The notes under the pieces were generated by a model. The model did no database searches and was not told the DNA's origin. It was given only the letters and a program-made list of their open reading frames with translations. 64,000 bases of DNA from Nitrosopumilus adriaticus (GTDB lineage Archaea > Thermoproteota > Nitrososphaeria > Nitrososphaerales > Nitrosopumilaceae), in assembly GCF_000956175.1 (NCBI RefSeq), contig NZ_CP011070.1, positions 1,606,147 to 1,670,146 of the forward strand, given 5' to 3'. How positions within the stretch are numbered: the stretch's first letter is position 1; each line of letters starts with the position of its first letter. This document shows, piece by piece, positions 57,545-61,215 of the stretch. The position numbers and the translations under genes are program-made.

Positions 57545-58060
57545 ATGATGAATTGTAAATTATCCTACTTGGTAAGCAAATTACAGTTAATTTCAAATGT
57601 TCTTACAACAAGAAGGTATGCTACAATTGCTATAATTAGTGGTCTTGGATTGGGAATAATCTATTATTTTTTGACAATGTCAATGCTAGTATCTCATTTG
57701 GAGACCACAATGGAATTGATGCCATCGTATATCATTACGACAGTTGTATTAACAATTATAATTTCAGCTTTGGCTGGGATCAATTTTGCACTAATGGCTT
57801 TTAAGATGAAAAGAATGAAGATGATGAATTCCGTCAAGGGTAACTCATCAGCTGTCTTAGGGGGTGCATTTGCAGCGTTTACTCCAGGATGTCCTGCATG
57901 TACTGCTCCATTAGCTGTAATTTTAGGAGCGGTTGGAGGATTATCATTATTTCCAATGCAGGGATTAGAATTAAAATTTATTTCAGTAGGGGTTTTGATT
58001 TTTTCTATTTTTTGGATTACAAGAGGCCTTCAGAGTAAAAGTTGTTGTAAGATAGGATGA
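57545..58060 (+). CDS. Membrane protein with CPAC motif
   Basis: 171 residues, about four to five hydrophobic helices. A conserved-looking GAFAAFTPGCPACTAPLAVILGAVGG segment places a CPAC motif inside or beside a helix, and a CC pair ends the protein (SKSCCKIG). A CxxC in a membrane helix suggests redox or metal binding, as in DsbD/CcdA-like proteins, but the fold is not recognisable. Unknown function. Confidence 0.7.
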   Translation: MMNCKLSYLVSKLQLISNVLTTRRYATIAIISGLGLGIIYYFLTMSMLVSHLETTMELMPSYIITTVVLTIIISALAGINFALMAFKMKRMKMMNSVKGNSSAVLGGAFAAFTPGCPACTAPLAVILGAVGGLSLFPMQGLELKFISVGVLIFSIFWITRGLQSKSCCKIG

Positions 58061-58099: not shown

Positions 58100-58552
58100 C
58101 TAATTCAAAGAAATTGTAAAAGATAGACCAGATTGATCAAATCCTAATTTTTTATAAAACTGATGTGATTCTTTTCGTCGATTTCCAGATTCAAGCCTAA
58201 TTCTATGACACTTTTTCTCTCTCCCAATAGATATGCAGTAATTGATTAGTTTTTTACCTACTCCCTTATGCTGAAATTTTTCACGTACAATTAATTCGGG
58301 AATGTATAACTCTAAAGAATTTTGATTAAGTCTTGTCATAAAAATAATACTTACCATCGCAATTATTTCAGTTTCATTATATTGCACAAGAATGATTTTT
58401 TTATCATTATCTGTGATGTATTTTTTTACTAGTTTTCTAAAAGAATCTACGTCTAAGTCTGTTTCTGGTTTTGGACGACCAAGTTCATATAGCAATCCAA
58501 GAATAATAGGAATGTCGTTATTTGTGGCCTCTCGTAAATCAATATTTTCCAT
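58100..58552 (-). CDS. GNAT family N-acetyltransferase
   Basis: 150 residues. LREATNNDIPIILGLL at the start and the acetyl-CoA loop VREKFQHKGVGKKLINYCI (Q/RxxGxG/A), with LESGNRRKESHQFYKKLGF at the end. Substrate unknown. Small single-domain GNAT. Confidence 0.9.
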   Translation of the reverse strand: MENIDLREATNNDIPIILGLLYELGRPKPETDLDVDSFRKLVKKYITDNDKKIILVQYNETEIIAMVSIIFMTRLNQNSLELYIPELIVREKFQHKGVGKKLINYCISIGREKKCHRIRLESGNRRKESHQFYKKLGFDQSGLSFTISLN

Positions 58553-58602: not shown

Positions 58603-58698
58603 ATGGAAGACGTTGGGCAAATAGTTATGATTGCCTTAATAATAGGAGCTGTTGGGATTTTTGTTGGTTCTAGAATTTGGATGCTTTTTAGAAAATAG
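58603..58698 (+). CDS. 31-residue single-helix membrane microprotein
   Basis: ATG to TAG encodes MEDVGQIVMIALIIGAVGIF then VGSRIWMLFRK. One hydrophobic helix flanked by acidic and basic ends. It lies 66 bp before RNA element B on the same strand. Unknown function. Confidence 0.5.
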   Translation: MEDVGQIVMIALIIGAVGIFVGSRIWMLFRK

Positions 58699-58764
58699 TT
58701 TGACGTGTTAGCATCAGGTAAAAATTCTGAACAAAGTTAAATATTATTTTGACGTATATATCAT

Positions 58765-58866
58765 AACGAGAAACCGTCATTCTGCGTAGTAGAATGGCAG
58801 GTTTGGAAAACAATTCATGTTATAGAAATCGTTCCTAGATTCTATGTTTTCCAAGAATTTCTCGTT
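58765..58866 (+). ncRNA. Structured RNA element B (three-helix junction)
   Basis: AACGAGAAA (58765-58773) pairs perfectly with TTTCTCGTT (58858-58866). The first inner arm pairs CCGTCATTCT (58774-58783) with AGAATGGC-A-GG (58791-58801). The second arm pairs TTGGAAAACA (58803-58812) with TGTTTTCCAA (58845-58854) and continues as ATAG-A-AATC/GATTCTAT around a 7-nt loop. A TATA box (gttaaatatta, 58736-58746) sits about 25 nt before the first paired base. Sister of element A at 22706. Confidence 0.65.
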
Positions 58867-58882
58867 GTTTTAATTTAAAAAA

Positions 58883-59260
58883 TTATGGCTTTATTTTAGC
58901 TTCAGTGTACTGTTGTGCAAGAGCAATTAATTCATCTACACCTAATGGTTTTGAAATTATTTTGATTAATCCTTCTTTTACAGCCTCTTGATTTTTTGGA
59001 TCAAGTTGTGAATAACCAGTTACCATAACAACTTTAGCATTTTTATCAATTTGTTTAATTTGTTTGAATGCCTCATATCCATCAAGTACTGGCATATCAC
59101 CATCCATAATCACTAAAGATGGATTTGCATTTTTGAATTTTTCAACCGCTTCTTCCCCATTAACTGCTGTTTGAAGTTCAAATCCATGTAATTCTAGAAT
59201 TTCTTTATAAATAGAAATTAGGTCTTCATCATCTTCAACTAGCAGAATGACACTATTCAT
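58883..59260 (-). CDS. CheY-like response regulator
   Basis: 125 residues, a receiver domain only. D10, D11, D13 acidic pocket in LVEDDED, phosphoacceptor D53 in LVIMDGDMPVLDG, Thr of VTGYS and the Lys of IISKPLG. Phosphorylated by a histidine kinase, probably the one encoded divergently 161 bp away. No output domain, so it acts by protein contact. Confidence 0.93.
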   Translation of the reverse strand: MNSVILLVEDDEDLISIYKEILELHGFELQTAVNGEEAVEKFKNANPSLVIMDGDMPVLDGYEAFKQIKQIDKNAKVVMVTGYSQLDPKNQEAVKEGLIKIISKPLGVDELIALAQQYTEAKIKP

Positions 59261-59421: not shown

Positions 59422-61215
59422 TTGAGTAGTGGTGTTTTATCAAAATCAAGTATAAACCATAAACAAATTTTAATTTTATTAATTTTAGTTTTAGTAGTAA
59501 TTACTACAATCTATCAATTAAGACCATTTCTTGATGATGAGCAATTTAGTTGGATATCAATTCCAACATATTCAATTCTTCCAGGATTACTCACGGTTTA
59601 TTCTAGCGTTCTTGCAATAAAATTACACAAGCAAAAACACTTTCAAGCAAAAGCATTTTTTTTCTTCGCACTAGGAAATGTATGTTGGTTTATAGCTGAA
59701 CAAATTTGGCAAGCATATGATCATCTTTGGAATGAAGACCCATTTCCATCTGAAGCTGATGTTTTTTTTATTGCGTCTTACCCATTTATGATAATTTTTC
59801 TATTTCTCTCCATCAAACCCATCCTTAAATCAATTAGTAGAAATGTTTGGTTGTTTTCACTTGCTTTATCTTTCTCATTTTTGATACCATCTGTTTTAGC
59901 TGCGTATGATGATATGGTAGGTGAACAAGCATTTGCAACATCTATTGCTCTAACATATCCTATATTATCATCAATTCAATTAATTCCAGCAATTATTGGT
60001 TTACTGTTTCTTAGTAAAAAAGGGATAAATTTTTCATGGATGTTGTTATTATCTGGATTTATAATTAATAGCATAGCTGATTCTTTTTTCCTCTTTGTAG
60101 AACTTGATGGCTCCTATTATGATGGGCATCCAGTTGATTTGATCTTTGTATATGGTTTCATTTTGTTAATTTTTTCCCTTCACACCCGCTTAAAAATTTC
60201 GAACATTCCTAATTCTGAAAATTATGGAATGCTATTTCATGAAAATTTGCAATATGACACAATTCATAAATTTGGAATTCCATTAACTTTATCCATTATT
60301 TGCTTGATTGTTACAACAATTTTAGTTCATTCAGTTTTCATTGAATCCGAAGAAAGTATTTCTGCTCAGAGTATTACATTTGGAATTGTTGTAATGCTTG
60401 TTGTTTTTGTAACAATTATTTTAACAATCAATAGAAATCTATCAAAATTAGTCAAAATTAGAACTAACGAGCTTGAAAAGCAAAAAAATAATCTAGAACA
60501 TCTTGTTGAGGAAAAAACTCAAGAATTATTGAAATCCGAACGCCTATCTGCAATTGGGGAGTTATCTGGTCGTCTAGCACATGACATGAGAAATCCATTG
60601 TCAGTAATGAAAATGTCTGTAGATTTGATAAATCAGAGTGATGGTGAAACGAAGATTTCTGATGTTAAAGTAGTAGAACGATTAGATTTAATCAAAAAAA
60701 GTATTGATAGGATTTCTCATCAAGTAGATGATGTTTTGAGTTATGTAAGAAGATCTCCATTAAAATTAATTTCAGTGTCTTTATCAGAATTGATACAAGA
60801 TTGTATAAAAAAAATTAATCTACCAGATAATATAAAATTGAAATTTATTAAAAATGATTTACAAATTAAATGTGATCCAGTAAAACTAGAAGCTGTTATC
60901 ATTAATCTTATTGTAAATGCAATTCAGGAAATTCCAAATGGCGGTAATATCGAGATAAGATCATTTGAAAATGATGAATTTATGGTAATTGAATTCATTG
61001 ATTCAGGAAAAGGAATATCAAATGAAAGTATTGACAAGGTATTTGAACCTCTATTCACTACTAAACAAAAAGGAACTGGTTTGGGATTGGCTAGTTGTAA
61101 AAATATTGTAGAGCAACATCTAGGCAAAATTTCTGTGAGAAATAACCCGACAACATTTACTATAATGATTCCAAAGGAATTACAACAAATTTCTAAAGGT
61201 TCAAAGCAATCATAA
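59422..61215 (+). CDS. Multi-pass membrane sensor histidine kinase
   Basis: 597 residues from TTG. About ten hydrophobic segments occupy residues 15-350 (an integral-membrane sensor without a large extracellular loop). A coiled coil follows (LEKQKNNLEHLVEEKTQEL), then HisKA with the phosphorylated His in GRLAHDMRNPLSVMKM and a HATPase domain (N-box LIVNAIQEIPNG, IDSGKGIS, FTTKQKGTGLGLASCK). Probably phosphorylates the divergent receiver protein. The stimulus is unknown; a membrane-property sensor is plausible. Confidence 0.92.
   Translation: MSSGVLSKSSINHKQILILLILVLVVITTIYQLRPFLDDEQFSWISIPTYSILPGLLTVYSSVLAIKLHKQKHFQAKAFFFFALGNVCWFIAEQIWQAYDHLWNEDPFPSEADVFFIASYPFMIIFLFLSIKPILKSISRNVWLFSLALSFSFLIPSVLAAYDDMVGEQAFATSIALTYPILSSIQLIPAIIGLLFLSKKGINFSWMLLLSGFIINSIADSFFLFVELDGSYYDGHPVDLIFVYGFILLIFSLHTRLKISNIPNSENYGMLFHENLQYDTIHKFGIPLTLSIICLIVTTILVHSVFIESEESISAQSITFGIVVMLVVFVTIILTINRNLSKLVKIRTNELEKQKNNLEHLVEEKTQELLKSERLSAIGELSGRLAHDMRNPLSVMKMSVDLINQSDGETKISDVKVVERLDLIKKSIDRISHQVDDVLSYVRRSPLKLISVSLSELIQDCIKKINLPDNIKLKFIKNDLQIKCDPVKLEAVIINLIVNAIQEIPNGGNIEIRSFENDEFMVIEFIDSGKGISNESIDKVFEPLFTTKQKGTGLGLASCKNIVEQHLGKISVRNNPTTFTIMIPKELQQISKGSKQS

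Follow-up and report, generated by a model that had tools for sequence, protein, structure and literature searches.

The 64,000-nt stretch of the Nitrosopumilus adriaticus genome analysed here (the window) contains a short element that is almost certainly a genuine stand-alone RNA gene. This conserved, structured gene has no Rfam family, carries an elaborate promoter of its own and most likely specifies a trans-acting regulator. The predicted unit begins with a conserved promoter that carries two further conserved elements, continues into a three-way-junction RNA whose P2 cap and apical CAUGUUA are near-invariant, and closes with a T-run. The gene was placed at 58765-58866 on the plus strand; with the T-run, to which the RNA probably extends, better limits are 58765-58871. 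An initial annotation had described a compact RNA with its own promoter at this locus, a reading borne out by covariation, promoter conservation, varied neighbours and an excess of G-U over A-C cells on the plus strand. The features of the locus are as follows.

58100-58552, minus strand: GNAT acetyltransferase
58603-58698, plus strand: 31-residue membrane microprotein, upstream neighbour, outside the RNA gene
58729-58733, plus strand: GAACA, -36 to -32, an upstream element of the promoter that reads GATCA in the family consensus, from column conservation
58737-58744, plus strand: TATA box TTAAATAT, -28 to -21, from column conservation
58750-58756, plus strand: TGACGTA, -15 to -9, conserved in the TATA-to-start spacer, from column conservation
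58765-58871, plus strand: small structured RNA, predicted to start at 58765 and to finish in the T-run 58867-58871
58765-58771 (to 58773 in this 9-bp copy), plus strand: 5′ strand of helix P1, from covariation
58773-58802, plus strand: arm P2, cap UCUGC-GUA-GUAGA at 58781-58793, one bulge, from covariation
58803-58812, plus strand: 5′ strand of helix P3, UUGGAAAACA, from covariation
58814-58822, plus strand: near-invariant UUCAUGUUA at the P3 tip, candidate binding site, from conservation; mostly unpaired in free folds
58830-58838, plus strand: apical loop CGUUCCUAG, moderately conserved, from motif counts in 87 copies
58845-58854, plus strand: 3′ strand of helix P3, UGUUUUCCAA, from covariation
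58860-58866, plus strand: 3′ strand of helix P1, from covariation
58883-59260, minus strand: response regulator (PF00072, E 1.1e-25), convergent downstream neighbour, outside the RNA gene
59422-61215, plus strand: histidine kinase

Folding of 58765-58866 on the plus strand gives a minimum free energy of -34.7 kcal/mol, against -17.0 +/- 3.1 in 200 dinucleotide shuffles (z = -5.68; none of the 200 as low), so that the comparison with shuffled sequence proposed in the initial annotation comes out well beyond its controls. The reverse strand is the weaker of the two (-26.2 kcal/mol, z = -4.17), its low z being what the helices themselves produce. Sequence and fold agree with the arrangement first noted, comprising an outer helix AACGAGAAA/UUUCUCGUU of 9 pairs in this copy, a first arm with one bulge and the tip UCUGC-GUA-GUAGA, and a second arm formed by UUGGAAAACA/UGUUUUCCAA. 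The 8-bp inner helix that had been added to this arm is found in the fold of the window copy and of a few relatives; as a conserved family feature around the apical loop it was rejected, other members pairing that region differently. Pairing between the 5′ end and the apical CGUU/CGUC, assessed by eye, fails in some members.

Relatives were sought by blastn with 58725-58880. Of 60 genomes from the genus, 56 gave matches at E <= 1, many of these matches being chance-like; 56 places were kept after a local blast at E 1e-3. Leaving out one very divergent place (L062) and one cut by a contig end (L063), 54 copies were aligned by sequence alone (alignment A1). A larger set (A3) holds 87 selected copies fitted to a covariance model, and is hence biased towards the model structure; loci fetched twice and weak, class C and class D loci (L099-L101, L114-L120, L122, L125, L126) were excluded. 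Some genomes contribute several copies, and the copies are therefore not independent.

RNAalifold on A1 recovers a three-way junction formed by P1, P2 and P3. On this alignment, 94.4% of 1614 cells of the named structure pair, against 39.7-54.6% when the helices are slid, and 11 of the 30 pairs are altered on both sides; cells with both sides altered number 45, compared with a shuffled mean of 14.2. The model-fitted A3 gives standard pairs in 92.8% of 2597 cells, with 17 of 30 pairs altered on both sides and 128 such cells, compared with 31.1 after shuffling and at most 55 in slid versions. The shuffle control overstates significance among related sequences; neither the comparison with slid helices nor the folding z-scores rely on that control. 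Those z-scores average -4.08 over 85 A3 homologues (two copies with N were dropped) and lie below -2 in 83; equal-length flanks average 0.04 (n = 82, three more being too short or containing N). By helix, A3 shows 98.0% of P1 cells paired, with both-sided changes in two pairs, and such changes in 8 of 13 pairs of P2 and 7 of 10 modelled pairs of P3. Read on the plus strand, the 87 copies contain 292 G-U and 39 A-C cells; setting aside one fixed G-U pair leaves a ratio of 206 to 39, and we therefore take the plus strand to be the RNA.

Sequence is conserved alongside pairing. The P2 cap TGCGTNGTA occurs in 81 of the 87 copies, CATGTTA at the P3 tip in 84 and TCATGTTA in 78; the CAUGUUA is mostly unpaired in free folds. 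CGTY is found somewhere in the RNA in 82 copies and GTCCT in 45, while the stem sequences GGAAAAC and GTTTTCC are each present in 72. The 3′ end reads CUCGUUGUUUU or similar in most of the 54 copies, by eye.

Promoter columns were counted in the 54 genus copies with 90 bases upstream. Per-column conservation is 91-100% for GATCA at -36 to -32, 87-100% for TTAAATAT at -28 to -21 and 69-100% for ACGTA at -13 to -9; the full TGACGTA ranges over 56-100%, with its minimum at the G of -14, and ATTTT at -19 to -15 is also kept. No column upstream of -45 exceeds 0.5 bits in these copies, and there is little conservation past the T-run. The initial annotation had rightly placed a TATA box at promoter spacing, and only its limits needed correction, from 58736-58746 to 58737-58744. 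This spacing predicts a start at 58765, with a conserved T adjoining at -1. GATCA is present in 76 of the 87 A3 copies, the window copy having GAACA; among the 17 A3 copies from other genera, 14 have GATCA and 15 have TTAAATA. By eye, the GATCA/TATA/ACGTA arrangement is absent upstream of the SRP RNA gene, the 16S rRNA gene and eight tRNA genes in the same genome, which argues against a general promoter of stable RNAs. The extended motif matches the element with 0 mismatches and no other place in the genome with fewer than two; we therefore found no regulon there. At up to two mismatches it gives 11 matches against 22 for the reversed control, so a wide regulon sharing this promoter in the genome was rejected.

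A covariance model of the RNA (R1) finds the element in the window at 103.6 bits (E 9.7e-26) and a single copy in the whole genome, one contig of 1.80 Mb (E 2.7e-24). Copies at E <= 0.01 are present in 88 of 250 Nitrosopumilaceae genomes, namely 67 of 95 in Nitrosopumilus, the genus of the window, 13 in g16, 5 in g11, 2 in g13 and 1 in g5; part of the places in this table was retrieved for alignment. Several genomes carry two to four copies. In a class-wide sample of 300 genomes, 74 match at E <= 0.1, and the one weak match outside the family (G261, E 0.019), whose flank (L118) has no such promoter, was counted as probably due to chance. An exact pattern of both cores occurs in 48 stretches among named genomes of Thaumarchaeota/Nitrososphaeria, mostly Nitrosopumilus and also Nitrosarchaeum, Nitrosotenuis and Nitrosomarinus, as well as one 'uncultured archaeon' bin. 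Several nearly complete genomes (for example G059 and G164) gave no R1 match, and the RNA is thus not essential to the genus.

R1 also weakly matches a second type of RNA, class C, an 81-nt three-way junction represented by L115:1981-2061 (minus strand), L116:1993-2073 (plus strand), L119, L145, L146, L117 and L158. The AACRAGRA/UYCUYGUU outer helix is common to the RNA of the window and all seven of these copies, and GATCA-N3-TTAAATAT precedes five, L117 and L158 differing upstream; the loops are not those of the window class. A model built from the seven copies (R2) detects class C in 21 of the 250 family genomes, each belonging to the window's genus, and finds none in the genome of the window. 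Six genomes (G001, G052, G159, G160, G166 and G167) have class C without the window class, as scored by R1 at E <= 0.01. Cross-recognition is weak in both directions, R2 reaching E 0.016 on the element (its best match in the window) and R1 E 0.00065-0.0071 on four class C copies. Searches with both models revealed no second element of this type in the window; the second-best weak match, 991-1055 on the minus strand (E 0.098 with R1, 0.47 with R2), is probably chance. Two divergent g13 copies, L099:2354-2462 (minus strand) and L100:2377-2485 (plus strand), keep P1 and P3 and have lost both invariant loops. L121 holds two tandem RNAs on the minus strand (2042-2149 and 2542-2636), the second much diverged, each preceded by a TATA-like box. 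Common descent of the window class, class C and the g13 forms is likely. More tentatively, these three, the ~107-nt class, the 81-nt class and the divergent g13 forms, may make up a lineage-specific set of modular Nitrosopumilaceae riboregulators, with a common outer helix, usually a dedicated promoter and target-meeting loops that are exchanged, some genomes carrying several siblings.

The surroundings of the gene bear on whether it stands alone. Gene neighbours vary among copies, without any protein being kept next to the RNA; because neighbours differ and both flanks are unconserved, we regard the gene as a self-contained transcription unit rather than a leader. Judged by sequence, it is thus a unit separate from neighbouring mRNA, as is asked of a trans-encoded archaeal sRNA. 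The microprotein gene upstream has a conserved AVGIFVG-RIW-FRK end and no Pfam match. Relatives of it exist in 68 of the 95 genomes of the genus, for the most part at a distance from the RNA, so a link beyond the local one was discarded; it adjoins the RNA in near relatives of the window and also in L012, where the orientation differs. Further upstream, 57545-58060 (plus strand) encodes an apparent membrane protein of 171 residues, which contains a PGCPAC motif and matches nothing in Pfam at E 0.001. The only ARAGORN and Rfam matches in the window are four tRNAs.

We considered several other accounts of the element. It could act in cis as a leader, or belong to the minus-strand response-regulator mRNA as its 3′ end or terminator; in favour, the T-run stops 12 bases short of where that convergent gene ends. 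Against this, the RNA and its promoter adjoin unrelated genes in other genomes, the G-U cells favour the plus strand and the conserved promoter lies on that strand. With both neighbours known in 71 of the 87 copies (ORFs of at least 80 aa), the next downstream gene is on the opposite strand in 40, and at most 13 have a same-strand gene start within 150 nt downstream; an ORF prediction overlaps the RNA in five of the 87. At the window locus the next large same-strand ORF begins at 59422, so the view in the initial annotation that the element does not lead a same-strand gene holds, and we rate both the leader and the terminator as very improbable. Varied neighbours and the two to four copies in several genomes could also point to selfish or mobile DNA that has inverted ends and folds by accident. 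However, the genome of the window has a single copy, neither viral contigs (searched with the exact pattern) nor phages and plasmids (searched by blastn) yielded any, the interior arms covary, and the promoter, itself conserved, is situated beyond the inverted ends; such an origin is quite unlikely. That the RNA is a very short mRNA encoding a small peptide, for which a 14-codon ATG frame seen by eye in the window copy might speak, is the least credible reading, since reading frames are not kept among the 87 copies: 17 have no complete ATG ORF and the remainder encode 2 to 23 residues. Many C/D and H/ACA guide RNAs of archaea are of about this size, yet a guide for RNA modification of either type is hardly to be expected here. 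None of 4227 Rfam 15 families matches at gathering score at the element or at the loci of six relatives, a loose scan gives a best E of 3.5, and there is no ACA-like box near the 3′ end (GUUGUUUU). Complementarity to rRNA, assessed in one genome with its rRNA operon and SRP RNA, is no better than that of the reverse-complement control, and a role as rRNA guide was dropped.

The main rival is that the RNA serves an RNA-binding protein as scaffold or sponge, with the invariant loops and stem sequences as protein contacts. Conservation of the stems in sequence besides pairing fits such contacts, as does the sharing of the outer helix, and not the loops, with class C. In a search of 464 kb, about a quarter of the genome, with few motifs, none of the 428 start regions contains the complement of the 8-nt loop sequence UCAUGUUA, where 0.65 would be expected; start-codon antisense action through CAUGUUA was therefore set aside within these regions, a base-pairing regulator is still unsupported, and the scaffold was kept. 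The start-region and rRNA searches thus provided no base-pairing target. On the other side, no partner protein is known and none is conserved beside the gene, and we think a scaffold or sponge a real but distinctly less probable role. Overall, the account that we find best, and hold with some confidence, is a self-contained ~107-nt non-coding RNA gene of Nitrosopumilaceae that acts as a regulator in trans.

Among described archaeal RNAs, one of the closest in character is sRNA154 of Methanosarcina mazei, a trans-encoded sRNA that is expressed and affects protein levels (PMC3177094). Both are intergenic, with their own promoter and a likely regulator site, at ~130 nt for sRNA154 and ~107 nt here. 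The proposed sRNA154 operator is GGTA-N6-TACC, whereas GATCA and ACGTA flank the TATA box here; expression and protein effect are demonstrated for sRNA154 (PMC3177094), while the present RNA is predicted from sequence. Tan1, an abundant non-coding RNA of marine group II Euryarchaeota, is by description also a structured orphan from a lineage of marine archaea (PMC5069720). Tan1 differs in being 229 nt long, in belonging to another phylum and in having been found by expression rather than by conservation. Of the archaeal families, only HgcG (RF00064) came up in the loose Rfam scan, at 7.3 bits against a cut-off of 77 (E 5); this partial match covers 55 of 276 positions and is at chance level. 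A 2012 review states that no thaumarchaeon had yet been studied for small RNAs (PMC3432209). We found no description of this RNA in the accessible text of open-licence literature, including PMC5069720, PMC2864571, PMC3432209 and PMC3177094, and an earlier report elsewhere is possible. Retention of the putative fold and promoter across relatives suggests a regulatory RNA that has not been described.

Regulation of expression in trans is, on balance, the function that we would assign. The extra promoter elements would be the site of a regulator, and the RNA would be produced under a particular condition. The predicted junction may shield the RNA and display both invariant loops, which would bind a partner in trans, either an mRNA or an RNA-binding protein. 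By such binding the RNA could control genes elsewhere.

Ammonia-oxidizing archaea are among the commonest cells of the sea and drive nitrification. An RNA that 67 of 95 Nitrosopumilus genomes keep along with its promoter offers a defined point of entry to the question of riboregulation in these organisms, and to what triggers it.
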